Part shown: in pieces, positions 22,309 to 34,815 of the stretch
How the letters are laid out: every line of letters starts with the position of its first letter
Numbering within the stretch: position 1 is the first letter of the stretch
NCBI GenBank assembly: GCA_902797035.1
Contig: CADBRH010000027.1
Span: 1-34,815 of the forward strand
Reading direction: 5' to 3'
Length of the DNA: 34,815 nt
From: an uncultured Bacteroidia bacterium
GTDB taxonomy: Bacteria; Bacteroidota; Bacteroidia; Bacteroidales; UBA932
Program-made: the position numbers and the translations under genes
Notes under the pieces: model-generated
What the model was told of the DNA's origin: nothing
Databases searched by the model: none
Seen by the model: only the letters and a program-made list of their open reading frames with translations

Positions 22309-23754
22309 TTACAGGTACTCTATCTGGAAACTCCAGTCCCATTGGTTGAAGTAAAGGTTGCCCCCTTCCCACTCGACCTCTCCTCTCTGGAAGTCAACTG
22401 TCTCGCTCCGGGGATATTTCTTGGCGGGCGACATTTCCCGCCCGTAATCGCTGTTCACGATCAGGCGGTACGGCTCGATCCCTCCGAGGAAGAAATAGCC
22501 TCCGTAGGGGGTGATCCCGAAACTCTGGTCCACCGGCATCCAGCCGTAGCCCTCGAAATAGATCTCGCCCCAGTCGTGCATGTTCTTATCCCCCGGATGC
22601 ATCATAAGGCCGCTCTGCCACCTCATCGGGATGCCCTTGTAGCGGCACAGCGTCATCAGAAGGAGGGTCTTCATCCCGCAGTCGCCGTGGCCGTTCTGGA
22701 GGACATATTCGGGGATATTCTCCATGGTGGAATACTCCCTCGCTGAGGCCCAAGGGAAGGTCTCGTCAATCCATGTGTAAAATGCCTTAGCCTGCAGGTA
22801 GGGGTTATCGATCCCGGCGGAGAGCGAGTCGGCTATCGCCTTGATCTTGTCGGTGAAGATGATGTGCTTCTCACGCTCTGCGGTGTATTCCTTGTACTCG
22901 TCGGTGGTGGTGTCGTACGGGAGGACGAGGTCCGGGTCGACGGGGTGCCATTCGCCGTAGGAAGTGTATTCGAAGACCTCATAGAAGGTCACGTCCTTGT
23001 AGCGGTTGGTCTTGGCCTCCATGTAGAGGCTGCTGTGGGCGCAGGAGGGGTCCGAGAATATGATGTTCTCCGGGGAATACGCCACGCTGTCCACTCCGGC
23101 CTCGATGAACTTGATGTCAGTCTGCCTGGCCACGTCGGCCCTGGGGTAGGGCAGCCAGCAGCGGAGGGTCTTGCCGGGACGCAGCGTGTTGACCGGCACC
23201 GTCAAGCTGAACCGCACCCGCATCCTCTTGGGCAGAGCCAGGTAAGTTTCTGCCGGCAGCTCCGTCGTCTCCCGGCCGTACTCAGCCGCGGCGGAGCGAG
23301 AATGGACGCGGACGGGGGATGACGGAGTGCCGGCCAATCTGGCATTTACCGTCTCCTGAATGGCGGGAATCGTCTGGGCGTCAATGGCTTGATGGCCGGT
23401 TAACCCGGGTGCCGGGGGCTCCACCAGCTCTTTCTTGGCCTTCATCTCCGGCACGATCCTGAACAGGTTGGGGCCGGCGTTGCGGAAATACATCGTCCTC
23501 TTACCGATCACCATATTCTCCAGCTCACCCGACTCGGTCCACTTGTCGATCTGCTCCTCGGTCACATAGGGGTCGTATTTACGGATGTAATCCTTGACCT
23601 CCTCACGGGTCCGGCAGAAATCGGCCGCGAGCCTCTGGCTCAAGTCTCTCTCCCATGAATATCTCTGCCTGAGGTGCCCGGGAAGCCAGATATTGGCGGC
23701 CAGCGCCAAGCCGACCAGCACCCAGAGGATAATCTCGCTCTTTTTCATTCTCAT
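22309..23754 (-). CDS. transglutaminase-like Cys protease-fold protein, membrane anchored
   Basis: 481 aa. An N-terminal hydrophobic helix (residues 8-24, IILWVLVGLALAANIWL) serves as signal or anchor, so the rest is periplasmic. The C-terminal transglutaminase-like core has all three catalytic residues: C359 in HGDCGMKTLL, H393 in MHDWGEIYF and D409 in WMPVDQSFG. The N-terminal ~300 residues form a beta-rich domain usual in Bacteroidetes members. Such proteins are often peptidases on cross-linked or wall peptides rather than true transglutaminases. It is coupled to the dipeptide epimerase gene by a 4-nt overlap, which supports a role in releasing muropeptide-derived peptides. The cut bond cannot be told from sequence. 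Confidence 0.8.
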   Translation of the reverse strand: MRMKKSEIILWVLVGLALAANIWLPGHLRQRYSWERDLSQRLAADFCRTREEVKDYIRKYDPYVTEEQIDKWTESGELENMVIGKRTMYFRNAGPNLFRIVPEMKAKKELVEPPAPGLTGHQAIDAQTIPAIQETVNARLAGTPSSPVRVHSRSAAAEYGRETTELPAETYLALPKRMRVRFSLTVPVNTLRPGKTLRCWLPYPRADVARQTDIKFIEAGVDSVAYSPENIIFSDPSCAHSSLYMEAKTNRYKDVTFYEVFEYTSYGEWHPVDPDLVLPYDTTTDEYKEYTAEREKHIIFTDKIKAIADSLSAGIDNPYLQAKAFYTWIDETFPWASAREYSTMENIPEYVLQNGHGDCGMKTLLLMTLCRYKGIPMRWQSGLMMHPGDKNMHDWGEIYFEGYGWMPVDQSFGITPYGGYFFLGGIEPYRLIVNSDYGREMSPAKKYPRSETVDFQRGEVEWEGGNLYFNQWDWSFQIEYL

Positions 23755-24941
23755 AATATCACGGAATTAAGGGGGACAATGCCGATGCCGGGACGGTCCG
23801 GAAGCGTGATCTTGCCATTCACCACGGTCATTCCCTCGAAACGGTCGTTGCTGATCAGCAGGTTGCCGTCAAGGTCGGCGAAATCGACGACCGGGGAAAG
23901 CTGGGCCGCCGCCGAGACCGCGCAGGATGTCTCGGTCATGCAACCGACCATGACCCTCATGCCCTCGGCGTGGGCGTAGTTGGCCATCTTCCAGGCCTCG
24001 CGCATGCCCGTGCACTTCATCAGCTTGATATTGATTCCCGTGTAAGCCCCTTTGATGGAGGGGATGTCTTTCAGCCTCTGGATCGCCTCGTCGGCGAAAA
24101 TAGGGAGGGGACTGTTCTCCGTCAGCCAGGCGGTCTCGTCCAGCATCTCCTTGGGCATGGGTTGCTCGACCATGACGATGCCGTGCTCCGCGAGCCAGTG
24201 GATCATCTCCAGAGCCTGATTCTTGTCTTTCCAACCCTGGTTGGCGTCCACCGCGATAGGGAGGTCGGTGATCTCCCTGATCGTCTCGATCATCTCCTTG
24301 TCGTTGTCCAGCCCGACTTTGACCTTGAGGATGTTGAACTGGTCGGCGCACTCCTTGGTTTTCTCCCTCACGACATCGGCCGTGTCGATCCCGATTGTGA
24401 AAGTAGTGTCAGGAGCCTTGGCGGGGTCGAGTCCCCAGATCCTGTACCAGGGCTGCCCCATCATCTTGCCCACGAGGTCGTGTAGGGCGATGTCCACGGC
24501 GGCCTTGGCGGCGGGATTCCCCTCGTTGATCCCGTCCACATAGGTCAGGATGTCATCGATTTGGAAGGGGTCCTTGAACTGTTCCAGATTGACCTTTTTG
24601 AGAAAGGTGGTAACGCTCTCGACAGTCTGCCCCAGATAGGGGGGCATCGAGGCCTCGCCGTACCCGGTGACGCCGTCGTACTCGATCTTCACCTGCACGT
24701 CTGGGGTGGTGGTCCTTGAATATGAGGCCACGGTGAAGGTGTGCCTGAGTTGGAGCTCGTAAGGCTCGAAACTCAGTTTCATCCTCGCCTTGCCGGAAGG
24801 GTTGACATGATAGGCCTGGACGGAATTCCCGACAGTCTTCTTCTTGGCTTCGCTGACGCCGATTGATACGGCCGAGCCAACGGCGGCTCCCACCAGGGCC
24901 GAACCCGCGGTCTTGATGAATTCTCTACGCTTGATAGCCAT
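23751..24941 (-). CDS. Tat-exported dipeptide epimerase (enolase superfamily)
   Basis: 396 aa. The N terminus KRREFIKTAGSALVGAAVG is a twin-arginine signal (R5-R6, F8, K10), so the folded enzyme should be exported. The body is a muconate-lactonizing-type enolase superfamily member: KVK at 206-208, metal ligands D232 (VDANQGW), E259 (VEQPM) and D284 (FADEAIQ), and the opposite general base K306 (INIKLMKCTG). Placement of two Lys on opposite faces fits L-Ala-D/L-Glu epimerases, which handle peptides from peptidoglycan. Periplasmic export is unusual compared with E. coli YcjG, which is cytoplasmic. It follows the NahK-like kinase by 21 nt. Other dipeptides are possible substrates. Confidence 0.85.
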   Translation of the reverse strand: MAIKRREFIKTAGSALVGAAVGSAVSIGVSEAKKKTVGNSVQAYHVNPSGKARMKLSFEPYELQLRHTFTVASYSRTTTPDVQVKIEYDGVTGYGEASMPPYLGQTVESVTTFLKKVNLEQFKDPFQIDDILTYVDGINEGNPAAKAAVDIALHDLVGKMMGQPWYRIWGLDPAKAPDTTFTIGIDTADVVREKTKECADQFNILKVKVGLDNDKEMIETIREITDLPIAVDANQGWKDKNQALEMIHWLAEHGIVMVEQPMPKEMLDETAWLTENSPLPIFADEAIQRLKDIPSIKGAYTGINIKLMKCTGMREAWKMANYAHAEGMRVMVGCMTETSCAVSAAAQLSPVVDFADLDGNLLISNDRFEGMTVVNGKITLPDRPGIGIVPLNSVIL

Positions 24942-24962
24942 TGTTCTGATCGTTATTATGTC

Positions 24963-26060
24963 CTACAGCGTTTCGAGCCAGGCTTTCATCTCGGGGACCT
25001 TGGCGAGGGCCGAGCGGAAGAGAGCCATCTGGTTGCGGGTGCGGACAAGGTTATGCTCAGGGTACTTGATTTTGTAATATGTGTCACCGTTGATGTAGTC
25101 GGCGAAGAACCGCACGGCCTGCATGAAGGGGAATAGGCAGGCGGCGTAGGGGAGGTTCTCCTTCTCGACCGGTGTGAGGAACGACTTGGTCCCCTTGATG
25201 TAACCCCTTGAGAAGGCTTTGAATATCTCCATGTCGAAATCGACCTTCTCCACCTCGGGGGAGTCCTCGGGCACGGGGTTGGCGGCGGTGCGGAGGAAGT
25301 CCCCGAAATCGGAGAACACATAACTCGGCATCAGGGTGTCTAGGTCGATGACGCACAGCACGTTACCATTCTCGTCGAACATCATGTTGTTGACCTTGGT
25401 GTCGCAGTGGCAGATTCTCTTTGGCAGGATTCCCTCGCGGTGAAGCTGCTCGGCCTTGCACATCCCTACACCGTGGATGTCGATCTCCTCCAGTATCTTG
25501 TGCAGCTCTCCGCCCGCCGGATCGGATGCCAGCCTCCCTGCCTTATCATTCTGGACGGCCTCTACCAACTGACGGAGCCTGAGCTCCATATTGTGGAAGT
25601 CGGGAATGGTCTCGCCGAGGGTGTCGGGGATGTCGGCCAGCATAGCCTCGAAACGCCCGAATGCCTCCCCGGCATATTCCGAGAACTCAGGGTTGACTGT
25701 CTCGTAGGTCTTGGCCCCGTCGATGAACACCGAGACCCTCCAGAACTTGCCGTCCACCTCGACATAGGTCTTGGGGCTTTCCTTCAAGGGGATGAATCTC
25801 AGGACTTTCCGGTCGATGTCCTTCTCTCCTGCCGCCTCGAGTTTGGCCCGGATGTGCCTTGTGGCGGCCATGATGTTGTTCTGGAGTAGCTCCACGTCTT
25901 TGAACACGGCGTTGTTGATTCTCTGGAGCACATAGTCGGGGGCGTCCCCCTCGGTGGTCACCTTGTAGGTGTCGTTGATCAGGCCGTTACCCAGCGGGGA
26001 TATCTCTTTCACGACGCCTTCGATGTCGAAGCGGTTGACGATAGCTTTCAGGTCTTCCAT
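24963..26060 (-). CDS. NahK-like aminoglycoside-phosphotransferase-family kinase
   Basis: 365 aa. 'GLINDTYKV' (26-34) forms the N-lobe glycine region; the catalytic loop is HCDTKVNN (218-225), with D220 and N225, and the metal site is VIDLDTLMP (237-245). This 'HxDTKxNN...DLDTxMP' pattern matches N-acetylhexosamine 1-kinase (NahK) and relatives, which phosphorylate C1 of GlcNAc/GalNAc. It differs from the AmgK-like kinase in region 1, so the window has two different sugar 1-kinases. It is the first gene of the minus-strand operon, behind a TATTTTTG box. Hexosamine specificity is by family resemblance. Confidence 0.78.
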   Translation of the reverse strand: MEDLKAIVNRFDIEGVVKEISPLGNGLINDTYKVTTEGDAPDYVLQRINNAVFKDVELLQNNIMAATRHIRAKLEAAGEKDIDRKVLRFIPLKESPKTYVEVDGKFWRVSVFIDGAKTYETVNPEFSEYAGEAFGRFEAMLADIPDTLGETIPDFHNMELRLRQLVEAVQNDKAGRLASDPAGGELHKILEEIDIHGVGMCKAEQLHREGILPKRICHCDTKVNNMMFDENGNVLCVIDLDTLMPSYVFSDFGDFLRTAANPVPEDSPEVEKVDFDMEIFKAFSRGYIKGTKSFLTPVEKENLPYAACLFPFMQAVRFFADYINGDTYYKIKYPEHNLVRTRNQMALFRSALAKVPEMKAWLETL

Positions 26061-26096
26061 CTGCGAACTGTTTTAGTGTTTGGTTGTATAATCTTT

Positions 26097-26104
26097 CAAA
26101 AATA
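26097..26104 (-). promoter_or_regulatory. -7 box for the NahK/hut operon
   Basis: TATTTTTG on the minus strand (26104 to 26097) matches TAnnTTTG and sits 36 nt before the start codon of the NahK-like gene. A TTTG at the ideal -33 distance is missing. It would drive the eight-gene operon down to hutI. Confidence 0.5.
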
Positions 26105-26132
26105 ACAATTATTCACGAAATTCGCAGTCGTT

Positions 26133-27296
26133 ATGGGAAAGAAAAGACACGTTATTCTCGACGCTCTGCGGGGATTCGCGATACTGGGGATTTGCCTGGC
26201 CAATTTCCCGGAGTTCTCTCTGTGGACATTCTCCGATCCGGCGGGCTGGACGGCGACGGACAAGATCACTAGGGCCATCCAGACTTTCCTTGTGGACGGC
26301 AAGTTCTACACTCTTTTCTCCCTGCTGTTCGGGATGGGTTTCAGCATCCAGCTGGAGAACGCCGGACAGAAGACACGGACTTTCTACCGGAGGATGGTTT
26401 TCCTCTTCCTCATAGGCCTTTGCCATCTCCTCTTCCTGTGGAGCGGGGATATCCTCATGCTCTACGCCGTGATGGGGATGCTACTCCCTCTGTTCAAACG
26501 GCTTCCGACACGGAAGATCCTCATTTGGGGCGGGTTTTTCCTCGCGCTTCCGGTGATTTGCGCGGCCGTCTTCGGGACTAGGCTCTCCGATCCCCTTGAG
26601 GCTGAGCAATGGAGAATCTGCGCCCTGTACGGCATCACCGAGGCGAATTTCGGGATGTGGCTGGCGGATATTCATAACTACAAGGGTATGCTCCAGTTCC
26701 TTCATCAGGGGGCGGTCGAGAGGATGTGGGAGTTCGTCACGAGTTACCGCTTCTTTAAGGTGTTGGGTCTGTTCCTGATCGGGTACGCCGCCGGCAGGGA
26801 AAAGATCTTCGCCGACCTCGGCGCCTGGAAGGGTTTGTTGAGGAAAATATTCATTTACGGGCTGACGCTGGGAGTCCCCGTGAGTATCGCTTACACTTGG
26901 AGCTCGATGGCGGGGGAGCCTCTCGGTCCGGTGGCTCATAGCGTTTTCTACCTGCTGAGCGTCTATCCGATGGGATTCGCCTACGCCGCCGGTTTCTGCC
27001 TGCTCTTCTCTCGCTCGCCGGAGGGTAGGGGATGGCTGCTTCTGACAAAGCCCGGCCGCATGGCCTGCACCAATTATCTCGGTCAGTCTTTCCTGGGGGT
27101 CCTGCTGTTCTATGGGATCGGGTTCGGCCTTGGAGGTAAGGTCGGGCTTCTAGCGACCGAGGCTATCGCCCTCGGTGTCTATGCCTTCCAGATCTCTTTC
27201 AGCGCGTTGTGGCTCAAGTATTTCCGTTTCGGGCCGGTAGAGTGGGTCTGGAGAATGCTGACCTACGGCCAGAGGCTCCCTCTCAGGAATCAGTAG
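26133..27296 (+). CDS. DUF418 family membrane protein
   Basis: 387 aa with about 8-10 membrane helices. The start 'RHVILDALRGFAILGICLANF' and 'LVDGKFYTLFSLLFGMGFSIQ' are the usual opening of DUF418/YeiB proteins. The C-terminal part 'PGRMACTNYLGQSFLGVLLFYGIGFG' and 'RFGPVEWVWRMLTYG' is the DUF418 domain itself. No enzymatic function is established; the fold resembles integral-membrane acyltransferases. It is divergent from the NahK-like gene with 72 nt between starts and convergent with the exonuclease gene (21-nt gap). No link to its neighbours is evident. Confidence 0.85.
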   Translation: MGKKRHVILDALRGFAILGICLANFPEFSLWTFSDPAGWTATDKITRAIQTFLVDGKFYTLFSLLFGMGFSIQLENAGQKTRTFYRRMVFLFLIGLCHLLFLWSGDILMLYAVMGMLLPLFKRLPTRKILIWGGFFLALPVICAAVFGTRLSDPLEAEQWRICALYGITEANFGMWLADIHNYKGMLQFLHQGAVERMWEFVTSYRFFKVLGLFLIGYAAGREKIFADLGAWKGLLRKIFIYGLTLGVPVSIAYTWSSMAGEPLGPVAHSVFYLLSVYPMGFAYAAGFCLLFSRSPEGRGWLLLTKPGRMACTNYLGQSFLGVLLFYGIGFGLGGKVGLLATEAIALGVYAFQISFSALWLKYFRFGPVEWVWRMLTYGQRLPLRNQ

Positions 27297-27317: not shown

Positions 27318-27812
27318 TCACAATATCTCAAGCGCTATCGCGGCGCAGGCCTCGGCGTCGGCGAGGGCGTGGTGGTGGTTTGTCAGGTCGTAGCCGCAGG
27401 CGGCGGCCACGGTCTGGAGTTGGTGGTCGGGTAGCAGCCGCCCGAAGCGGCGCCTCGACGCCGACAGGGTGTCACGGAACTCGTAATATGGGTAGTCCAT
27501 CTGATACACCCTGAACACCGCTTTGAGGCAGCCCTCGTCGAACCGGGCGTTATGCGCCACGAGGGGCAGGCCCTCGATCAGCGGCTCTATCCTGGCCCAG
27601 ACCTCGGAGAAGACAGGGGCATATTCAGTGTCCTCCGGCCCCAGTCCGTGGACTTGCCGGCAGTACCATTGGTAATACTCCGGCTCGGGATGGATCAGGC
27701 TGTAGAAGCGGTCGGTGATCTCCCCGCCACGCACCACAACCACCCCAACGCTGCAAACGCTGGACGGGCACTCGTTCGCCGTCTCGAAATCTATCGCCGC
27801 GAAATCAGTCAT
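27318..27812 (-). CDS. DEDDh 3'-5' exonuclease (DnaQ-like)
   Basis: 164 aa, a single exonuclease domain. Exo I is DFETA (D8, E10), Exo II is HNARFDEGCL (D92), and Exo III is H147-x4-D152 in HHHALADAEA, so all four metal ligands and the catalytic His are present. Free-standing proteins of this type act as proofreading subunits, RNases or DNA repair exonucleases. Its start overlaps the WYL regulator stop by 8 nt, so it is the second gene of that operon and would be controlled by the operator at 28735-28755. That link suggests an exonuclease induced with the accessory locus rather than a housekeeping proofreader. Confidence 0.9.
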   Translation of the reverse strand: MTDFAAIDFETANECPSSVCSVGVVVVRGGEITDRFYSLIHPEPEYYQWYCRQVHGLGPEDTEYAPVFSEVWARIEPLIEGLPLVAHNARFDEGCLKAVFRVYQMDYPYYEFRDTLSASRRRFGRLLPDHQLQTVAAACGYDLTNHHHALADAEACAAIALEIL

Positions 27813-28698
27813 ATCGTTTCAGCATTTCTTTAATCTCGGCGTGGACTTCGTCGCGTAAGCTTTCCGGTGACAGCACCTCCACCTCCTTGCCGTGACTGAG
27901 AATCTCCTGCATGAAGTCGTATGTGGAGGCCAGTCTGTACTTGAATACGCTGTATTCCCCGGTGGTCTCTATCTCCTTCTGGGAAGGATGAAGCGGCAGG
28001 GAGCGGAAGTACTTCACCTGACTCGCGGCCACCTTGAGTTCCACGCTTTCAACAGGGACGTCAACGCCGACAATGACCCCGAAAAACCTTGAGAAGAAGT
28101 CAGCCCCGTCGAAATCTTCTGGCATCTCGAGAGGGATGTCCAATTCCTCGACGTTATGGATACGGTCCAGAGCGTATATCCTCAGAAACTCATCCTCGCT
28201 TCTCGCCAGCAGATACCATCTCTGCCTGAAGAGTTTGAGGCAGTACGGGTGAGCCTTGAACGAGCTGGGCTCGGGGCTCGAATAACCTTGGTAGGTCAAC
28301 TGAATGGCCTTGCCGTCTTTCATCGCTCCGACGATTGGCGTGAGCCATTTCTGGCTCGACGGGATTGTTTCGAAGAGGATACGCTCCCGAAGGCTTCCAG
28401 CCTCATTCACCATGTTGTTCATGGATAGAGATTCAAGGAGCCACTGTTTGATGGCGTCACCCTCGATGTCCTCGCTGTCGATATAATAGCCCAGAGTCCG
28501 GTCATTTTTGATCTCTATCCCGAACATGTCCAGGATGGCCTCCCTGTGGTTGTGGAAGGTCCTTTCCGCCATCGGCTTGCCGTCGTCATTGAATGAACTG
28601 TTCTCCCAACAGCGACTGATGTCTTGCATCGAGATGTGTCCCCTCCGATTGATAGTGTCAATCAGCCAAACGTATCTTTTGAAAAAGTTCTTCGCCAT
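27805..28698 (-). CDS. WYL-domain transcriptional regulator
   Basis: 297 aa. Residues 1-75 form an N-terminal winged helix-turn-helix (RYVWLIDTINRRGHISMQDI, then AERTFHNHREAILDMFGI). Residues ~115-185 are the WYL domain, including the name-giving WYL at 161-163 and 'RIYALDRIHNV'. A WCX-like tail occupies ~215-295 (VELKVAASQVKYFRSLPLH, YDFMQEILSHGKEVEVLSP). WYL domains bind ssDNA, nucleotides or other ligands: PafBC and DriD respond to DNA damage, while BrxR/CapW control phage-defence genes. Its own promoter carries an AACTGCC-N7-GGCAGTT palindrome, and the same motif precedes three further transcription units, so I infer that this protein is the shared regulator. Whether it represses or activates is not shown. 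Confidence 0.88.
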   Translation of the reverse strand: MAKNFFKRYVWLIDTINRRGHISMQDISRCWENSSFNDDGKPMAERTFHNHREAILDMFGIEIKNDRTLGYYIDSEDIEGDAIKQWLLESLSMNNMVNEAGSLRERILFETIPSSQKWLTPIVGAMKDGKAIQLTYQGYSSPEPSSFKAHPYCLKLFRQRWYLLARSEDEFLRIYALDRIHNVEELDIPLEMPEDFDGADFFSRFFGVIVGVDVPVESVELKVAASQVKYFRSLPLHPSQKEIETTGEYSVFKYRLASTYDFMQEILSHGKEVEVLSPESLRDEVHAEIKEMLKRYD

Positions 28699-28718: not shown

Positions 28719-28726
28719 CAAAGATA
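28719..28726 (-). promoter_or_regulatory. -7 box of the WYL-exonuclease operon
   Basis: TATCTTTG on the minus strand, a perfect TAnnTTTG, 20 nt before the WYL start codon. The -33 position is occupied by the operator palindrome and shows no TTTG. Confidence 0.75.
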
Positions 28727-28734
28727 ATGATAAA

Positions 28735-28755
28735 AACTGCCGAAATGTGGCAGTT
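28735..28755. promoter_or_regulatory. operator 1 (WYL gene), 7-bp arms
   Basis: AACTGCC-N7-GGCAGTT is a perfect inverted repeat with spacer GAAATGT on the plus strand. Its centre (28745) is 19 nt upstream of the first base of the TATCTTTG box. The inner 17 bp are identical to operator 2. It lies between the AAA+ gene stop and the WYL start. Confidence 0.8.
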
Positions 28756-28773
28756 GTATTGAAATCGGTTTCA

Positions 28774-30417
28774 TCAGAAGCCGATTTTCCGGAGGGTTTG
28801 AGCGGAAGCGATATTCTCCTCCGCGCACAACATCCTGATCTCGGCGAAGTCGGGGTCGTCCGGGCCGATGATCGCCCTGACTTCTTTCTTCCGGGCGATA
28901 TTCTCGATTTGGCCGCCTGAGAAATCGAATTCGGTGGCCAGTCGCTCGGCTTCCGTCTCGGAGAGGGAAGGGATCATCGTCCTCCAGATGGAGACCTTCG
29001 CCTCCACGGACGGCTTCTCAAAACGGATTTTGTACAAGAAACGCCTCTCAAAAGCCTTGTCCAGGTTGGTGGTCAGGTTCGTGGTGGCGATCAGTATCCC
29101 GTCCAAATCCTCCATCTCCTGCAGGATGATATTCTGGATGGAATTCTCCATCTTGTCCACGGCCCGTTCAGCCCCTTCCTGACGTATGCCGAAGATGGCG
29201 TCCGCCTCGTTGAAAAGCAGGATCGGAACCATGCCGCCGGCTTTCACCGTTTGCCGGTAATTGTCAAAGACCTCCTTGATGTTCTTCTCGCTTTCGCCTA
29301 CCCAGCAACTCTTGATTTTGGAGACATCCACGATGAAAAGGTTCCGGCCGCTCTTCCTGGCTATTTGGTAGACGGTCTCCGTCTTTCCTGTGCCAGGTCC
29401 GCCGTAGAAGAGGCAGGTGAAGCCCGTCCGCAGGCCCTTTGCCTTCATCCGTTCTCGAATATCGTTGAAGCGCTCCTCACTCAGGAGTTCCTTAAGTTGC
29501 TCCACCTGACGGCCTTCCGGGATGTTGTAAAACAGATCTTTCCGTCCGATGGTTCCGGCCGGAAGTTTCCGTGAAGCCGACACCTTGGGGGCTTCTTTGC
29601 GAATGCCTCCGACATCGGCGAAGACTTCCTCTTTCACCGCGTCACGGATCTTGAAGTAGTCTTTGGTCATCATTCCATTGAAACCTGTGTATTCGATGAC
29701 CTTATCGCGCTGGAGTTTAAGATCTTCCCTTAATGAATCAGTCCGGAGTTCATCCAGTTCTTCTTCCTCCAGGTAATCGTCGACGTTGTGCCAACCAACC
29801 ATGTCGTCGTCCTCGAACCAGTAACGGGAGACCAGCCCATAAAATAAAATCCTCTCGGAATAATAGACATCCTCCAAATACTTCTTTACAGCCTTGGAAA
29901 CGCTTGTGTCTGGATTGTTCTCGAACAGGGCGATCATTTCCTCGTCAAGTTCCATCGAACTCAACTCGCCATCACTCCTGATGCTCAACAGTTTCTTCAT
30001 CCGGGACAGAATCTTGCCCGTGGAAAGCCCCGAGACGGGTTCGGGTTCCACTGGTCTGTTGCCTTTGAGGGCCTTCAAGACTTCTTTCGGGATGTGGATG
30101 CGAAGATCCTTATCCATACGTATGTACCCATTCTTCCTGAGATACTCCAAGTCGGAGTCATAGGTGAGGAACTGGAGATATTCCATGCCAAGAAAGGACG
30201 CGATGACCTCGCCGTCAATCCTGTAACGGGCGGACTTCTGGACGACGGCAGTCAGGATGAGCACCTGCATTGTACTCATGCCGAGAACCTGTTTCAAGAC
30301 CCGCAACTCCGCCGCCGCTTTCTTTGTCGTGGCGGGAGTGATCTTGATCGCGCAGTTATCTTCGTCCTTCATCTTTTCTGAGAGGGCGAACATACATTCG
30401 ATGATGGTCTTGCTCAT
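28774..30417 (-). CDS. AAA+ ATPase of unknown role
   Basis: 547 aa from the ATG at 30417. A longer frame would run into the tRNA-like gene and across operator 2, so it is rejected. The N-terminal ~280 residues are charged and helical, with no family I recognise. A central AAA+ domain follows: Walker A GGPGTGKT (339-346), Walker B ILLFNEADA with N403-E404 in place of the usual Asp-Glu, sensor 1 at N447 (ATTNLT) and Arg pair R458-R459 (FERRF). The Walker B Asn occurs in some AAA+ groups and need not kill activity, since the catalytic Glu is kept. This architecture (N-terminal adaptor plus one classic AAA ring domain) suggests a remodelling ATPase. It has its own promoter region with operator 2. 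Confidence 0.8.
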   Translation of the reverse strand: MSKTIIECMFALSEKMKDEDNCAIKITPATTKKAAAELRVLKQVLGMSTMQVLILTAVVQKSARYRIDGEVIASFLGMEYLQFLTYDSDLEYLRKNGYIRMDKDLRIHIPKEVLKALKGNRPVEPEPVSGLSTGKILSRMKKLLSIRSDGELSSMELDEEMIALFENNPDTSVSKAVKKYLEDVYYSERILFYGLVSRYWFEDDDMVGWHNVDDYLEEEELDELRTDSLREDLKLQRDKVIEYTGFNGMMTKDYFKIRDAVKEEVFADVGGIRKEAPKVSASRKLPAGTIGRKDLFYNIPEGRQVEQLKELLSEERFNDIRERMKAKGLRTGFTCLFYGGPGTGKTETVYQIARKSGRNLFIVDVSKIKSCWVGESEKNIKEVFDNYRQTVKAGGMVPILLFNEADAIFGIRQEGAERAVDKMENSIQNIILQEMEDLDGILIATTNLTTNLDKAFERRFLYKIRFEKPSVEAKVSIWRTMIPSLSETEAERLATEFDFSGGQIENIARKKEVRAIIGPDDPDFAEIRMLCAEENIASAQTLRKIGF

Positions 30418-30435
30418 TCTTTCTTCTGTTTTTTC

Positions 30436-30443
30436 GCGAAATA
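30436..30443 (-). promoter_or_regulatory. weak -7 box of the AAA+ gene
   Basis: TATTTCGC on the minus strand keeps TAnnT but not the final TTG. It lies 20 nt from the centre of operator 2 and 18 nt before the start codon, the same layout as at the other operators. A poorer box may mean stronger dependence on the regulator. Confidence 0.4.
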
Positions 30444-30454
30444 AAGGGGTTTTG

Positions 30455-30471
30455 CTGCCGAAATGTGGCAG
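30455..30471. promoter_or_regulatory. operator 2 (AAA+ gene)
   Basis: CTGCC-GAAATGT-GGCAG on the plus strand, the same 17 bp as operator 1 although the two sites are 1.7 kb apart. It lies 14 nt beyond the 3' end of the tRNA-like gene and upstream of the AAA+ gene. Confidence 0.75.
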
Positions 30472-30485
30472 GATGAGATAGTTTG

Positions 30486-30558
30486 AACCTTGGCCCAGAG
30501 TCGAACTGGGGTCTTTTCCCATCCAATATGAAACGTCCTACCGCTAGACGACCAAGGC
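30486..30558 (-). tRNA. tRNA-Gln(TTG)-like gene with aberrant anticodon arm
   Basis: Read on the minus strand, a 73-nt cloverleaf can be drawn. The acceptor stem is GCCTTGG/CCAAGGT (one G-U pair), the D arm GTCT-AGCGGTA-GGAC and the T arm CCCAG-TTCGACT-CTGGG; no CCA is encoded. The anticodon stem TTTCA/TGGGA needs two T-G pairs, and its loop TATTGGA gives TTG (Gln) but has A instead of the near-invariant T at position 33. The variable loop is 6 nt. It may be a working but divergent tRNA, a decayed copy, or a mobile-element tRNA. It lies 17 nt after the FtsK-like gene stop and could be cotranscribed with it. The anticodon call is tentative; that it is tRNA-like is well supported. Confidence 0.7.
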
Positions 30559-30575
30559 TTTATGTGAATGGTACA

Positions 30576-31499
30576 TCAAGGCCCTTTTTGAGCTTCAATG
30601 TGCTTGACAATCGCGGACACTTCTTCCTTACTGATGTATCCACCTTGCATTCGCTCCAGATTATTTCCTTGGCTAAACAGCAAATCTCCTCCGCCGATTA
30701 GTTTCTCAGCCCCCGGCTGATCCAGTATCGTCTTAGAGTCCTCACGGGAACTCGTTCGAAAAGCGATTCTTGTCGGGAAGTTGGCTTTGATGAGACCTGT
30801 TATCACATCCCGGGAAGGTCTCTGTGTGGCAATAACCATGTGGATTCCAGCGGCGCGACCTTTTTGGGCGAGACGAATAATAGATTCTGTAATCCGATTG
30901 GTAAGCTCCTTAACTTTCTTCTTATATTCCTTATTGGCCCCAAAAGCCACGGTCAAGTCGGCGTATTCATCAATAAAGCATACGATGTATGGGAGTTTAT
31001 TGTCCGATTGCTTGTTGTAGTCGCGGACGTTCTTCACCTGTGCCGCTAAAAGGGTCCCGTACCGGTCTTCCATTTCCTCGCAAAGACCGGTCAGGACATT
31101 GGCCGCATCCAGCGCGCGAGTGGCGATCGCCGTGTTACGCCATAGGTAATGATTGATCAGCGCTCCGTATTCGCTAAACTCGACCATCTTAGGGTCTATG
31201 AAGACGAACCGCAGTTCATCTGGCCTTTTACTAAAAAGGAGGGATGCCACCATCGAATGGAGGCTTACGGATTTCCCTTGTTTTGTGGCCCCGGCAGCGA
31301 GAATGTGAGGAGCGTCCACAAGGTCGATGACCTTGGTTTCTTGATCTTTAGTATAGCCAATGGCTAAAGGAAGTTCAGCCGCGCTGTCACGAAAGGTTTC
31401 GCTCCCCAGAAGGCTTTTCAGGGGAACTATTGAGTGATGATCTTCGTGGTTGTTCAGCAAAGACAGACTTGGCAAAGTGTACTTGGGTAATATGTCCAT
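30576..31499 (-). CDS. stand-alone FtsK/SpoIIIE motor ATPase
   Basis: 307 aa from the ATG at 31499. An upstream extension would read through the promoter and operator. It matches only the RecA-like motor of FtsK: opening 'YTLPSLSLLN', 'PHILAAGATKQGKSVSLHSM' with Walker A GATKQGKS (70-77), FIDPKMVEFSEY, Walker B CFIDEYADL (D177, E178), 'RLAQKGRAAGIHMVIATQRPS', 'IKANFPTRIAFRTSS', 'TILDQPGAEKLIGGGDLLF'. The membrane domain, linker and gamma DNA-reading domain of cell-division FtsK are missing, so it is a soluble translocase rather than the divisome protein. It has a perfect TACCTTTG box and operator 3 upstream. Related motors serve in conjugation, phage packaging and defence. Confidence 0.87.
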   Translation of the reverse strand: MDILPKYTLPSLSLLNNHEDHHSIVPLKSLLGSETFRDSAAELPLAIGYTKDQETKVIDLVDAPHILAAGATKQGKSVSLHSMVASLLFSKRPDELRFVFIDPKMVEFSEYGALINHYLWRNTAIATRALDAANVLTGLCEEMEDRYGTLLAAQVKNVRDYNKQSDNKLPYIVCFIDEYADLTVAFGANKEYKKKVKELTNRITESIIRLAQKGRAAGIHMVIATQRPSRDVITGLIKANFPTRIAFRTSSREDSKTILDQPGAEKLIGGGDLLFSQGNNLERMQGGYISKEEVSAIVKHIEAQKGP

Positions 31500-31523
31500 T
31501 TCTTTAACTGTTGTTTGATGCCA

Positions 31524-31531
31524 CAAAGGTA
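31524..31531 (-). promoter_or_regulatory. -7 box of the FtsK-like gene
   Basis: TACCTTTG on the minus strand, a perfect TAnnTTTG, 24 nt before the start codon and exactly 19 nt from the centre of operator 3. Confidence 0.75.
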
Positions 31532-31541
31532 GGCTGCCCGA

Positions 31542-31558
31542 GTGCCAAAGCATGGCAG
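31542..31558. promoter_or_regulatory. operator 3 (FtsK-like gene)
   Basis: On the minus strand CTGCC-ATGCTTT-GGCAC, with a perfect TGCC/GGCA core and one mismatch at the outer base. Its centre (31550) is 19 nt upstream of the TACCTTTG box, as at operators 1 and 4. Confidence 0.7.
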
Positions 31559-31595
31559 GGCGAAATAGCGAATCAAAAATCACCGCCAAGCACAA

Positions 31596-31612
31596 CTGCC
31601 AACCTTCGGCAG
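31596..31612. promoter_or_regulatory. operator 4 (unknown-gene operon)
   Basis: CTGCC-AACCTTC-GGCAG on the plus strand. Its centre (31604) is 19 nt upstream of the TATCTTTG box for the plus-strand operon. With operator 3 it makes a 150-nt divergent control region in which each promoter has its own site. Confidence 0.75.
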
Positions 31613-31622
31613 GGAGGGACAT

Positions 31623-31630
31623 TATCTTTG
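31623..31630 (+). promoter_or_regulatory. -7 box of the unknown-gene operon
   Basis: TATCTTTG, a perfect TAnnTTTG, 19 nt before the ATG at 31650. It should drive the four plus-strand genes from 31650 to 34301. Confidence 0.75.
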
Positions 31631-31649: not shown

Positions 31650-31997
31650 ATGACAGACAAACTGAACTTCTGGAAAGAAGCGAACAAACGAATGAGGAAA
31701 TACTTGGAGGGTGGGTATGAGGTTTACTCAAATCTTGAAACGATGAACGGGATTTACTCCGACATCCGGGAATTAGAGAATGCTTACTGGAATGACTCTC
31801 TGACAGATTTTAGCGTTCAAGACGATGATTTGGAATATGAACTTAACGAGGCGTTAGCGGATGCGAATTGCTTGATGTTTATGGTGGAGTTGAAATATGA
31901 TGGTTATAAGACCATCCTCGAGTATGCGAAAATCCATCCTGGATTAAAGGATGAATGTCTGGAGTTTTATTTCCCCGATGGAGATTATTCAATTTAG
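31650..31997 (+). CDS. small acidic protein of unknown function
   Basis: 115 aa. I do not recognise a family. It is acidic and probably helical, with many Tyr and Trp residues (KYLEGGYEVYSN, NAYWNDSLTDF, VQDDDLEYELNEALADA). There is no signal peptide or membrane helix, so it should be cytoplasmic. The start is chosen because it lies 19 nt behind a perfect TATCTTTG box; an ATG at 31643 opens only a 25-codon frame. It is the first gene of a four-gene plus-strand run under operator 4, with 12 nt to the next gene. Base composition is clearly more AT-rich than regions 1-3 (one 60-nt stretch near 31700 has 24 G/C). Confidence 0.75.
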   Translation: MTDKLNFWKEANKRMRKYLEGGYEVYSNLETMNGIYSDIRELENAYWNDSLTDFSVQDDDLEYELNEALADANCLMFMVELKYDGYKTILEYAKIHPGLKDECLEFYFPDGDYSI

Positions 31998-32009: not shown

Positions 32010-32522
32010 ATGAAGAAAGAATTCTGGCGCAAGGCGCCACAGTGCTCATCCTGCGTGTACCACCGTCCGGAAGGGAAAAGGCCCCATTCAGTAGATCCTG
32101 ACACTATCTGGAAAGAGTCTTGTTTCATCTGCGGATTCTCTTTTTGGCCGGAGTTAGAAGAAGCGGAGATATGCTTTGATTATGCGAGTCAGCGCAAAGA
32201 CTCGGCAATGGTAGATAAGGCCGAAAAGGACAGATGGGCGAAGAAGCATATTTGTTCACGATGCGCGTTCTATGAAACCAATGGCTTTGAATACTTTGAT
32301 CATCCAGAAATAGGGAAATACGAAGCCTGGAATGCTGATTTCCGATGCCGAGGTTATATCCATATCATTGATAACGACCATAATTGTTTCTGCTCTTCAT
32401 TCTTATCGTTGGAGCAGTGGGCAGAAGTCGAGTCTACTCCCATCTATGAAGGACAACGAATCCGCAAGTGGGAGGAGTTCCGACGGGTAAATTCTCTTTG
32501 CGCCATGCATGAAATGAAATAA
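32010..32522 (+). CDS. Cys-rich protein with duplicated zinc-binding-like halves
   Basis: 170 aa. Eleven cysteines form two similar halves. The first has C12xxC15 (CSSCVY), C38xxC41 (CFICGF) and C55 (ICFDYA). The second has C82xxC85 (CSRCAFY), C113 (RCRGY) and C126xC128 (NCFCSSF). The repeated pattern 'C-S-x-C-[VA]-[YF]' after which a W and two further Cys follow suggests an internal duplication that binds two zinc ions or an Fe-S cluster. The only further Cys, C164, is near the C terminus. I know no named family for it. It lies 12 nt after the acidic protein gene and 38 nt before the large unknown gene. Its role could be nucleic acid binding, but this is only a suggestion from the Cys pattern. 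Confidence 0.75.
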   Translation: MKKEFWRKAPQCSSCVYHRPEGKRPHSVDPDTIWKESCFICGFSFWPELEEAEICFDYASQRKDSAMVDKAEKDRWAKKHICSRCAFYETNGFEYFDHPEIGKYEAWNADFRCRGYIHIIDNDHNCFCSSFLSLEQWAEVESTPIYEGQRIRKWEEFRRVNSLCAMHEMK

Positions 32523-32560: not shown

Positions 32561-33985
32561 ATGGCAAAGAAAATACATATCGTAAGTGAAGAGTGGATGA
32601 TTACCGCATTAGACATGGTAAAAGCAGAAGATGATGTGGTTGTCGCGTACCCTGTTCCTATGGGTATGCACTATATCCCGGAGTCCTTGGACTCCATGGA
32701 ACTGATGAAGACCGCGATTTCCTGGAAAGACTCCTCCCTTTATTGGAAGTTGATGTATTTCGCGGAACGACTGGAAACATACAAATCGGACGGTCAAGTC
32801 GTCGTTTGGCATGCTCAAGACGCCGATTCAAGACTCCTCCTGTATGCTATATCTGAATGGTGTATGGCTGGTTTGTCCCACATAGACCTTACCCCAGATG
32901 GGTATGTTCCAGAGGTGCATCACCCGGAAGTGAAACATGATTTGGATGAGTACTTCGATCCGGAAGTGTTTTCACCGGGAATGATGTCATCACAGGACTT
33001 AAAAGCTCTGGTAGGGACGGAAAAGCCGGTTACGGATGAGGAGCGTAAGGAATACCATAGGCAGTGGACTGAATGGGGCGGAGAGGATTCCTTCGACAGC
33101 GTCATTGTGGTGGACCAGTACGGTCAATTGTACCAAACTTACAGGACTTTTGTCTACTCGGCCATTTTCACCGTCCTGCCAAAGGATAAAGAAATGTCGA
33201 TTGCCCGCTTGTGTAGTGAGGTGATGGATTATCATCCCCAATTGAGGGGTTCCTACATCATCGAGACCATCATCAAGATGGCCGATGAGACCTTGATCAA
33301 ATGGTGCGACCGCAATAAAAATGGAGAGAGTTACGATCTCGTTAAATCTACCGTCCGTCAGTATAAAACCGACGTGGCCGGAAACTGGCTCTACTGCCCT
33401 GAGGATTTTCTGTATCATTTTGCTAATAACGCCGGTAAGAAGCTGCACATCTCCGAAGAAGCGAAAGCCCAAGAATACAATCGCATGCGTCAGGATCACG
33501 ACAACCTGTATGGGCGTGGCCATCTGGCTCGAGAAGAAAGGAGAAAGGCGGAGGATGAACGCGATGAACGGAATCTCGTTCGTTGGGCAGGGGCGTTTAA
33601 CGCCAATTGGAGTTGGCGCCACTTGATGTCGGTTATGCATACGAAGCTGGAAATGATGGAGGATTATATGCGTCACTGGTCCTACATTGCAGATGGTCCG
33701 GTTTACGCTGACCAGATCCAACGTGCCATTCGATTGATCGAGATTTGTCTTGTATGGGGTGGAGAGAATGATTATAAGTTAAAACCCGGTGAGCAGGAGG
33801 ATACCGAATACCTGAATCCTGAGCACTTTCCACACTATGTCAACACCAGAAACGCAAGGCGTTTCCACGGCCCCGACTACGACGGCCACCACTTCTGGAG
33901 TGAAGCCCAACGTATTCGCTTCGACAAAGCCTGGAACCTCCTCTGGGAAATGCTACGCGTAAAACTATTGACTTGGGAGGACTGA
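32561..33985 (+). CDS. large protein of unknown function, possibly DUF1835-like N terminus
   Basis: 474 aa from the ATG at 32561; a TTG 12 nt earlier is possible. Residues ~1-105 (KKIHIVSEEWMITALDMVK, then VVVWHAQDADSRLLLYAISEW at about 80-100) remind me of the DUF1835 fold, where a similar 'hVhWh...D...hLhhhh' segment occurs; this is weak. A charged helical segment (HLAREERRKAEDERDERN) lies near 320-340. The C-terminal ~110 residues are rich in Trp, His and Arg (HFPHYVNTRNARRFHGPDYD, HHFWSEAQRIRFDKAWNLLW) and could form a separate domain. It has no signal or membrane helix. It is followed 1 nt later by a 104-aa gene, so the two are probably translated together. No function can be given. Confidence 0.75.
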   Translation: MAKKIHIVSEEWMITALDMVKAEDDVVVAYPVPMGMHYIPESLDSMELMKTAISWKDSSLYWKLMYFAERLETYKSDGQVVVWHAQDADSRLLLYAISEWCMAGLSHIDLTPDGYVPEVHHPEVKHDLDEYFDPEVFSPGMMSSQDLKALVGTEKPVTDEERKEYHRQWTEWGGEDSFDSVIVVDQYGQLYQTYRTFVYSAIFTVLPKDKEMSIARLCSEVMDYHPQLRGSYIIETIIKMADETLIKWCDRNKNGESYDLVKSTVRQYKTDVAGNWLYCPEDFLYHFANNAGKKLHISEEAKAQEYNRMRQDHDNLYGRGHLAREERRKAEDERDERNLVRWAGAFNANWSWRHLMSVMHTKLEMMEDYMRHWSYIADGPVYADQIQRAIRLIEICLVWGGENDYKLKPGEQEDTEYLNPEHFPHYVNTRNARRFHGPDYDGHHFWSEAQRIRFDKAWNLLWEMLRVKLLTWED

Positions 33986-33986
33986 A

Positions 33987-34301
33987 ATGGAATTGAACAG
34001 ATGGATTGAAGACCTTGATCATTGGTGCCCGGCCCAGATATATTATTATTTCGAGGATGCCGCCGGCGGCCGATGGTGCATCTATTTACGTTGGCGGCAT
34101 CAAGATCCGTGGACGGCTGAACTGGTTCGTTGTGACGAGAACTGGGACTTTGTCTGGGAGTGTCCTGACAATAAGATTCTTTTGGAAAACGAACCGCGAA
34201 TTCCAGGTAAACAAATGGGATATTACAGAGCCCAGGAATACTCAAACTTAATGGAGCGAGTCCTTGAGATTGTTAAACCGCGAATCCCGGAATTGAATTA
34301 A
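33987..34301 (+). CDS. small Trp-rich protein of unknown function
   Basis: 104 aa, no family recognised. It is unusually rich in aromatic residues (WIEDLDHWCPAQIYYYFED, GGRWCIYLRWRHQDPW, CDENWDFVWECPDN), with four Cys and a helical C terminus (EYSNLMERVLEIVKPRIPEL). The alternating pattern suggests a small beta-sheet followed by one helix, the shape of many small partner or immunity-like proteins, though nothing proves this. It starts 1 nt after the stop of the 474-aa protein, so the two may be partners. It is the last gene of the operon under operator 4. Confidence 0.7.
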   Translation: MELNRWIEDLDHWCPAQIYYYFEDAAGGRWCIYLRWRHQDPWTAELVRCDENWDFVWECPDNKILLENEPRIPGKQMGYYRAQEYSNLMERVLEIVKPRIPELN

Positions 34302-34310
34302 TTCAGACTC

Positions 34311-34327
34311 CTGTCGAGTTTTGGCAT
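34311..34327. promoter_or_regulatory. possible operator 5 (degenerate) before the RadA-like gene
   Basis: CTGTC-GAGTTTT-GGCAT has two mismatches to CTGCC-N7-GGCAG but keeps spacing and the TTT before GGCA. A weak box, TACTTAGC at 34339-34346, lies 20 nt from its centre, like that of the AAA+ gene. Confidence 0.35.
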
Positions 34328-34350
34328 AACAATGATTCTACTTAGCTGAT

Positions 34351-34815
34351 ATGGCGCAGGAAGTAATCAGAATGCGAGATATGCGGTTCGATCCGGAACT
34401 GTTCCGCAACTATATGAGCGGAACGGTCCTGGACGAGCTGCTTTGCGGTTATAAGGGATTACCCAAGGGGGTCAACTATATGATTATCGGCGATCCGGGC
34501 GTGGGCAAGACTACCATCATCCTGGACCTGCTCTCCAATATCCGAATTCTGAATCCGGGCACACGGGTCCTCTTCATCAGCGCGGAGATGAATGAGATTG
34601 ACCTGGCGATCTATGTCCAGCGTTTCCCGAAGTTCCAGGACCTGGACATCCTCTTCATAGAAGCCAATTTCGATGAAGAAGATAATACTCACAACCTTGA
34701 GACCGTCAGGGCCACGCTGGAGCAAGGTTGGGACATCGTTGCCATCGACTCATTCTATGAGTTGCAAGGCATTATCAAGGATGAGGAGAACTACACGCTG
34801 AAGAAGGCAGAGAGC
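34351..34815 (+). CDS. RadA/KaiC-like RecA-fold ATPase, 5' part
   Basis: 155 residues, running off the window end. After a short N terminus comes 'LDELLCGYKGLPKGVNYMI' and Walker A GDPGVGKT (47-54), then 'RVLFISAEMNEIDLAIYVQRF', equivalent to the 'VSGEES' switch of RadA/Sms, and Walker B 'WDIVAIDSF'. This is the arrangement of RadA, KaiC and DnaB-type ATPases. The N-terminal zinc finger of bacterial RadA is absent, so it is not the housekeeping RadA. If the weak box at 34339 is used, Met 8 (34372) or Met 11 would be more natural starts than 34351. The gap from the previous gene is 49 nt, so it may have its own promoter. The rest of the gene is needed for a firm call. Confidence 0.75.
   Translation, partial: MAQEVIRMRDMRFDPELFRNYMSGTVLDELLCGYKGLPKGVNYMIIGDPGVGKTTIILDLLSNIRILNPGTRVLFISAEMNEIDLAIYVQRFPKFQDLDILFIEANFDEEDNTHNLETVRATLEQGWDIVAIDSFYELQGIIKDEENYTLKKAES

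Follow-up and report, generated by a model that had tools for sequence, protein, structure and literature searches.

DriD of Caulobacter crescentus, an activator of an SOS-independent DNA-damage response that is triggered by single-stranded DNA (ssDNA), is reported to bind as a homodimer to the consensus ATACGAC(X)7GTCGTAT, which lies over a poor -35 element at a fixed distance from the -10 element (PMC12340889, a preprint). PafBC of mycobacteria, also a WYL-domain activator, is reported to stand in for the -35 contact and so to make the housekeeping RNA polymerase suited to PafBC promoters (PMC11804915), whereas BrxR and CapW, WYL regulators found beside defence genes, are described as repressors that act on inverted repeats (PMC9122601). 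Promoters of the Bacteroidota housekeeping sigma factor, sigma-ABfr, are described as consisting of a -7 box, TAnnTTTG, and a TTTG around position -33 (PMC7366714). Here, we analyze a palindromic element, TGCC-N7-GGCA, that occurs in front of a WYL gene and three further transcription units in a 34,815-nucleotide stretch of DNA from an uncultured Bacteroidales bacterium (contig CADBRH010000027.1; the whole stretch is called the window). Taken as a whole, the evidence makes it fairly probable that a DriD-type WYL activator acts at position -33 of sigma-ABfr promoters and controls its own gene together with a regulon of conflict and nucleic-acid functions.

A preliminary description of the window had proposed an undescribed WYL-controlled regulon. 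Searches of a library of open-licence papers, judged by titles and abstract openings, listed no WYL regulon of Bacteroidota, and to that extent the word "undescribed" is borne out. Beyond that description, the arrangement appears to recur over the phylum, in a geometry that by comparison of the sites looks equal to that of DriD.

Palindromic Sites in the Window and the Genome

The window holds exactly four copies of TGCC-N7-GGCA (28738-28752, 30456-30470, 31543-31557, and 31597-31611), all within 2.9 kb, and in 100 shuffles of the window the mean was 0.56 and the maximum 3, four copies being reached in none. When oriented toward their gene, all four palindromes fit CTGCCAnnnTTYGGCA; both the clustering and the common oriented consensus of the preliminary description thus hold. 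Throughout the genome assembly (2.27 Mb in 113 contigs, 83.85% complete), this consensus is matched exactly at five places, of which four are in the window, and the reversed pattern at none. A genome-wide scan, as had been suggested, was made with the full promoter pattern, CTGCCANNNTTYGGCA-N11-TANNTTTG, and with up to three mismatches it gave eight matches versus none for the reversed control. The best six of these eight (zero to two mismatches) are the four window sites and two sites on another contig, C62 (15006-15040 on the reverse strand and 19604-19638 on the forward strand), and the remaining two have three mismatches each. A chance origin of the sites was rejected on the strength of the shuffles and the reversed-pattern controls.

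The C62 sites precede a protein of 217 amino acids (aa) and one of 205 aa, both of no known function; between the two sites, and downstream of neither, lie two DUF262-type genes, one of which has a GmrSD_N match. Behind the fifth site, the 217-aa frame and a 142-aa frame (L204:8892-10001 in our locus set) group with proteins of 247-280 aa from three loci of relatives (L006, L147, and L219), and because the two frames belong to one family with these longer proteins, the C62 gene may be split in two.

Promoter Geometry and Spacing

At all four window sites, the palindrome is separated from the -7 box by 11 nucleotides (nt). Site 1 (CTGCCACATTTCGGCA, 11 nt, TATCTTTG; 28719-28753, reverse strand) precedes the WYL-exonuclease operon, site 2 (CTGCCACATTTCGGCA, 11 nt, the weak box TTATTTCG; 30437-30471, reverse strand) an AAA+ gene, site 3 (CTGCCATGCTTTGGCA, 11 nt, TACCTTTG; 31524-31558, reverse strand) an FtsK-like gene, and site 4 (CTGCCAACCTTCGGCA, 11 nt, TATCTTTG; 31596-31630, forward strand) an operon encoding proteins of 115, 170, 474, and 104 aa. 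Their scores are 42.2, 31.8, 35.1, and 33.8, respectively, in a matrix trained on 65 sites, all with the box at 11 nt, and a score of 20 served as the threshold for a site. From the start of the site to the likely ATG there are 55 nt for the WYL gene, 54 for the AAA+ gene, 59 for the FtsK-like gene, and 54 for the 115-aa gene. The preliminary description had placed three palindromes 19 nt, centre to box, upstream of the box and the AAA+ palindrome 20 nt; the former stands, but the AAA+ site shares the common spacing, and the figure of 20 nt arose because its box was read one base later. Its box at the 11-nt gap has T for A at the second position, as do several AAA+ promoters of relatives (TTTCTTTG and TTCCTTTG), others having A.

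The clean tests of spacing are two scans in which the gap was left free over 2-20 nt. Among 148 genomes of the same family, 26 of 28 matches fell at exactly 11 nt (one at 12 and one at 13; two control matches), and among 20 Chryseobacterium genomes all 49 matches, spread over 18 of the genomes and including four identical copies in one genome, fell at exactly 11 nt, with no control match. The four identical copies, CGAC-N7-GTCG promoters of genome G792, lie near contig ends (C5, C17, and C29 at 131-164, and C12:149816-149849), which suggests that the assembly was interrupted by a gene family or element present in several copies. Upstream of 77 Bacteroidales WYL genes (57 + 20), 15-mers with 4-5 paired arm positions before a -7 box were counted: gap 11 has 26 of them, and no other gap has more than 4. 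Counted in this way upstream of Chryseobacterium WYL genes, gap 11 has 57, but gaps 15 and 16 are also well filled (43 and 41), probably by imperfect palindromes that overlap the same conserved stretch. At the Bacteroidales loci, 56 of 124 TGCCN4TTYGGCA contexts have TAnnTTTG within 22 nt, and 55 of these 56 have it at gap 11, a figure biased because, for many loci, the search that led to them allowed only a gap of 11 or of 9-13.

The box is the TAnnTTTG -7 box of sigma-ABfr promoters: among the 65 training sites its second position is A in 49 and the final T of TTT is kept in 57, the remaining box positions being set by the pattern. The T-run on the box side of the palindrome has T in 63, 60, and 58 of the training sites, and the mirror positions on the far side have A in 23, 8, and 45; since the run is not mirrored, the element has a direction. 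The 11 nt between palindrome and box are not conserved, and the element is tied to the box and the start codon. None of the 65 sites has TTTG at -33. The preliminary description was right in remarking that these promoters lack it, but the lack is no separate proof, because the palindrome itself excludes TTTG from this place. The sites thus show the layout of DriD-type promoters, a 4-7-4 palindrome at a fixed distance from the -10/-7 box and overlapping a poor -35/-33.

Recurrence across Bacteroidales

With a looser pattern (TGCC-N7-GGCA, a gap of 9-13, and TANNTTTG), 33 of 149 genomes of the family matched; among the matches listed there are 55 versus 18 for the reversed control, with up to five within 23 kb (G084). 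The strict pattern, applied to 393 genomes of the order and reaching other Bacteroidales families, gave 25 matches in 15 genomes versus 2 for the control; one of the 25, in G460, has a long coding frame opposite it and is probably due to chance. Of the 15 site-bearing genomes, 12 have a WYL match at 1e-40 or better, compared with 61 of the 378 others (Fisher p = 2e-7, uncorrected for kinship). A search for the plain palindrome without the box in 398 genomes was mostly noise (177 genomes match, and among the matches listed many are GC-rich and coding-like), and it was used solely for finding more loci.

The gene content recurs as well. A trio of AAA+ gene, WYL gene, and DEDDh exonuclease gene is found repeatedly in relatives, with sites before the first two or before the first, and the other site-bearing genes around it vary. 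When distinct genes with 100 nt or more of DNA upstream were counted outside Chryseobacterium and without truncated copies, a site scoring at least 20 preceded 19 of 25 AAA+ homologues, 28 of 54 WYL homologues, and 2 of 24 exonuclease homologues, the last being mostly carried behind WYL; these shares are upper values, as part of the loci were chosen for having a site, and the recurrence counts are inflated by kinship. The share of WYL genes with a site drops as identity to the window protein declines: it is 10/13 at an identity of at least 50%, 11/20 at 43-50%, 7/15 at 38-43%, and 0/6 below. The element thus recurs at homologous genes of other genomes and families and, in a form with a different half-site, also in a second class, which supports the regulon proposed from the window. 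Among 50,697 records of a phage collection, 9 had WYL relatives (on unannotated faecal contigs; identity no higher than 41%), as did 30 of 72,556 plasmid records, and no close copy was seen in either set.

The WYL Protein and Its Proposed Half-Sites

The protein proposed as the activator (297 aa; 27805-28698, reverse strand), which has a site before its own gene, matches the Pfam families WYL (PF13280, 8.9e-14) and WCX (PF25583, 5.9e-14). No Pfam helix-turn-helix family matched it at 0.01, and the alignment contains a segment resembling a recognition helix, RTLQRDI / RTFHNHR. A profile of 30 WYL relatives has PafBC as its best match (2.9e-21) and reaches 1.6e-14 to 3.7e-15, over a similar extent, with 7u02, 7tzv, 9cu3, and 9pfq, which we take to be DriD entries. 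With 8tp8, named as DriD in PMC11804915, it gives 1.8e-14. Named BrxR/CapW entries range from 5.8e-5 (CapW, the best) to 1e-3, and an unnamed WYL entry, 7tb5, gives 2e-5; close kinship to the BrxR/CapW repressor family is not seen in this profile.

In Chryseobacterium, whose WYL proteins are 32-35% identical to the window protein, CGACAnnTTTTGTCG, 11 nt, and TAnnTTTG lie upstream of 56 of 58 distinct WYL genes, which were chosen by protein. This element has CGAC-N7-GTCG half-sites, the core of the published DriD consensus, and its length, its box-side T-run, and its gap equal those of the Bacteroidales element. More distant Bacteroidales WYL genes have TCCCATTTTATGGGA or TTTCACTTTGTGGGA at the corresponding place. 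On a quick tree of 65 WYL proteins, the half-site types GGCA, GTCG, and GRGA need 3 changes versus a mean of 15.8 for shuffled labels; 42 of the 65 rows carry a label, one of them (L157) doubtful, and near copies help to keep the number of changes low. The text of the recognition helix is RTLQRDI with CGAC, RTFHNHR with TGCC, and SNFHRWK or STFHRWR with TTTC or TCCC. The half-site type appears to follow the WYL clade, the recognition helix apparently changing in parallel. We consider it quite probable that the WYL protein acts at these sites; the link is one of association, drawn from the conserved place of the element before WYL genes and from the half-site following the clade, and it favors the candidate regulator named in the preliminary description.

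Genes behind the Sites

Gene calls in the window came from a simple picker of open reading frames (ORFs), and start codons are guesses; those of the AAA+ and FtsK-like genes (30417 and 31499) were our choice inside longer ORFs. In its operon, the WYL gene is followed by that for a 164-aa DEDDh 3′-5′ exonuclease (27318-27812, reverse strand; Pfam RNase_T), which adjoins WYL in several relatives. The AAA+ ATPase (28774-30417, reverse strand, ORF open to 30522) matches Pfam AAA, and the FtsK/SpoIIIE-type ATPase (30576-31499, reverse strand, ORF open to 31622) matches Pfam FtsK_SpoIIIE at 1.3e-42. An IetA-like or TRIP13-like identity of the former and an SspH or mad8 identity of the latter were rejected, since the PADLOC matches span the AAA domain alone and the shared ATPase domain alone, respectively. 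The FtsK-like gene is divergent from the operon led by the 115-aa gene, and each has one site. None of the four operon proteins, all encoded on the forward strand, has a Pfam family: the 115-aa protein (31650-31997), the 170-aa protein (32010-32522; homologue in a site-bearing operon of L207), the 474-aa protein (32561-33985, scanned from 32549; homologues in the operons of L006, L206, L207, and L219), and the 104-aa protein (33987-34301; homologues in those of L006, L148, L207, and L219). A KaiC/AAA_25-like ATPase gene follows and is cut by the window end (34351-34815, forward strand). In front of it lies a weak candidate site (CTGTCGAGTTTTGGCA, 11 nt, CTACTTAG; 34311-34345, forward strand), whose score of 10.4 barely exceeds the best random score of 9.4; the window copy is possibly a decayed site. 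The ATPase is 87% identical to an L150 gene, and a homologue in L150 has a strong site (33.3).

To the left of this island, the genes at 23751-27296 are 85-91% identical to those at L156:2169-5701 of genome G129, which at the matching place has WYL and AAA+ genes within a different gene set, and the island may be a hotspot with exchangeable content. Within the island, a tRNA-Gln (TTG) gene (30485-30558, reverse strand) separates the FtsK-like gene from the AAA+ gene and ends, on its 3′ side, 13 nt before the AAA+ promoter site; it is a possible integration point or read-through neighbour.

Across Bacteroidales, the products of genes that immediately follow a site, or stand further along that gene run, include GmrSD restriction proteins, a KaiC-like ATPase, a PD-(D/E)XK nuclease, and a MoxR-like ATPase with a VWA protein (DUF2201) after it; a UvrD helicase lies behind a weak site (20.7). 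PADLOC puts the PD-(D/E)XK nuclease in the candidate family PDC-S26 and the GmrSD proteins near HEC-06 and related families, a resemblance of names that is no proof of function. The targets further include an operon with Nmad2 and Nmad3 proteins, DUF1232, and zinc-ribbon proteins; at L267:6992-9650, a site-bearing operon combines Nmad2 and Nmad3 with a 387-aa protein of no assigned family. Behind some WYL genes lie proteins that we name MGMT-type from their sequence. On a Prevotella plasmid, a weak site (17.1) stands in front of a run of WYL, 3′-5′ exonuclease, and two DUF262 genes. In Chryseobacterium, besides the WYL gene, sites precede members of one protein family, of which that at L293 bears a T9SS sorting tail and behind which lie very large RHS-like proteins, the RHS label being our own. 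Sites there also precede a peptidase M15 gene with a patatin after it, and a papain-fold toxin-like protein. No Pfam family was found in two scanned RHS-like stretches, nor for several other targets. A dynamin-like GTPase (L254:8290-10329) and an ADP-ribosylglycohydrolase (L261) were rejected as targets, as they lie upstream of or opposite the nearest sites. Also rejected was a general RtcB/RNA-repair regulon: RtcB near the L157 sites has no convincing site of its own, and a MoxR-VWA pair of L148 has one. Judged by the types of genes behind the sites, the regulon would comprise conflict and nucleic-acid functions.

Proposed Mechanism and Alternative Explanations

In the proposed mechanism, the WYL-WCX protein would be a homodimeric activator of the DriD type, and each of its two winged-helix heads would read one half of TGCC-N7-GGCA. 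With the palindrome centred 19 nt upstream of TAnnTTTG, over the would-be -33 TTTG, the bound dimer would replace the lost -33 contact and anchor RNA polymerase carrying the housekeeping sigma-ABfr, in the way that DriD and PafBC act where the -35 element is poor. After damage or attack, the activator would be turned on by a nucleic-acid or similar ligand in the WYL domain, and the presence of the WYL gene among its own targets would give feedback. The other targets would be the neighbouring AAA+, FtsK-like, and exonuclease genes, the 115/170/474/104-aa operon, and the two C62 promoters; in relatives they would include GmrSD type IV restriction, PD-(D/E)XK nucleases, and Nmad2/3, and in Chryseobacterium secreted or toxin-like proteins. 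Activation seems likely rather than repression: the rigid gap and the kinship to PafBC and DriD favor activation by polymerase anchoring, and one gap over two classes with different half-sites argues for direct contact with the polymerase, unlike a simple road-block.

Several observations weigh against this mechanism. Of the arginine pair that binds ssDNA in PafBC, the second is kept in 30/30 relatives and the first is A, S, G, or C, the positions having been mapped by us, by spacing, onto RLSR/RLDR of the alignments; the DriD-type pair, as defined on PafBC, is therefore incomplete, and an ssDNA ligand is unsupported by the sequence. The ligand may be another one, or another arginine such as the invariant R160 may take part. 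Outside Chryseobacterium, no site reaches the score of 20 upstream of 26 of the 54 WYL genes, and in only 3 of these 26 cases is an AAA+ homologue the gene directly in front. Among 20 WYL genes of the order chosen by protein similarity alone, two (L336 and L338) score above 20; of the remainder, L334 reaches 18.4, L347 shows a different palindrome at gap 11, and L332 has a doubtful AT-rich palindrome. Only one of 20 distant WYL paralogues has an imperfect element (L312, 23.0) and none a perfect one, and no element was found at the Segatella copri and S. hominis plasmid WYL genes (39-41% identical) despite an AAA+ homologue nearby. Conversely, 3 of the 15 site-bearing genomes of the order have no close WYL. 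A universal rule for WYL genes is ruled out by these genes and distant paralogues without the element, and the arrangement therefore concerns some WYL clades, not WYL proteins at large. The L312 element (G079:C39, base 256 of the reverse complement) reads GTCCCACATTTTGGTA, 11 nt, TTTCTTTG, upstream of a paralogue 38% identical. The Segatella WYL genes share TGTGCAACAT upstream, then a T-rich stretch, before TATCTTTG (L330:4900-5003 and L331:4900-5003); this string is possibly another site type.

A repressor over -33 could likewise keep a fixed place, and the WYL protein might bind the sites in the manner of BrxR and CapW, covering -33 until a ligand releases it, for example on phage infection. 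WYL repressors beside defence genes are reported to bind inverted repeats and to repress their own promoter (PMC9122601), and the cargo behind the sites does include defence-type genes. We nevertheless regard repression of this kind as unlikely, as the profile of the 30 relatives matches PafBC and DriD far better than BrxR/CapW, and the element, with its unmirrored T-run, is directional. Moreover, R-BOX1 of BrxR is described as lying a short way downstream of one promoter, and R-BOX2 as lying on the upstream side of a second (PMC9122601), whereas the spacing here is fixed over two classes. If instead an alternative sigma factor or an unrelated regulator read the element and the WYL gene were merely one target, the many site-bearing genes other than WYL, the site-bearing genomes without a close WYL, and the many close WYL genes without the element would be accounted for. 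However, the palindrome implies a dimer and not a sigma factor, the -7 box is of the housekeeping type, the half-site type changes with the WYL clade, and in Chryseobacterium it equals the published DriD core, all of which makes such a factor quite improbable. Hardly credible is a chance pattern or a mobile-element repeat devoid of regulatory role: the sites do cluster in islands of variable content, the window island sharing its flanks but not its contents with G129, yet the reversed-control patterns gave 0-2 matches versus 25-49, and the element stays tied to box and start codon while the intervening 11 nt are not conserved.

Implications

To our knowledge, Bacteroidota mostly lack a classical SOS regulon. 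Starting from the proposed DriD-type activator, a broader picture may be drawn, which we put forward tentatively and hold to be somewhat doubtful, namely a Bacteroidota-wide, SOS-like conflict response. In it, a DriD-type WYL activator, with a lineage-specific palindrome, an invariant promoter geometry, and a half-site that drifts with the recognition helix, would sense a damage or invasion signal other than plain ssDNA and switch on type IV restriction, nucleases, DNA translocases, and interbacterial-toxin-type genes together. If this is true, Bacteroidota, which are dominant in animal guts, would gain a stress regulon whose sequence code can be read from genomes, and a regulator encoded at one switch could enable them to express defence and DNA-handling genes jointly. 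The element would then place the 115/170/474/104-aa operon, the AAA+ protein, and the 217-280-aa family in a response to damage or conflict, the promoter geometry would unite WYL activators of three phyla, and the ligand of the WYL domain would become a testable matter.

Comparison with Known WYL Systems

DriD resembles the system proposed here in the WYL and WCX domains of the protein and probably in its winged helix-turn-helix, in its 4-7-4 palindrome, whose CGAC-N7-GTCG is that of the Chryseobacterium element and whose shape is that of TGCC-N7-GGCA, in the fixed distance of the site to -10 over a poor -35, and in having an exonuclease among its targets, as reported (PMC12340889). The present system differs in its phylum, in its -33/-7 promoter, in the TGCC half-site of Bacteroidales, in its conflict-type cargo, and in one ssDNA-contact arginine that is not kept; it also has a site before the gene of the regulator, whereas DriD is reported not to activate driD. 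PafBC, the best profile match of the window WYL relatives and an activator that stands in for a promoter contact, is a heterodimer with a non-palindromic motif according to PMC6789036. SiwR of Mycobacterium smegmatis is described as a homodimeric WYL activator with a 19-bp imperfect palindrome (PMC10693628), but its site lies between -35 and -10 and its reported targets are adjacent genes. BrxR and CapW share with the window protein the neighbourhood of defence genes and the presence of inverted repeats (PMC9122601), but both are repressors and their profile similarity is weak.

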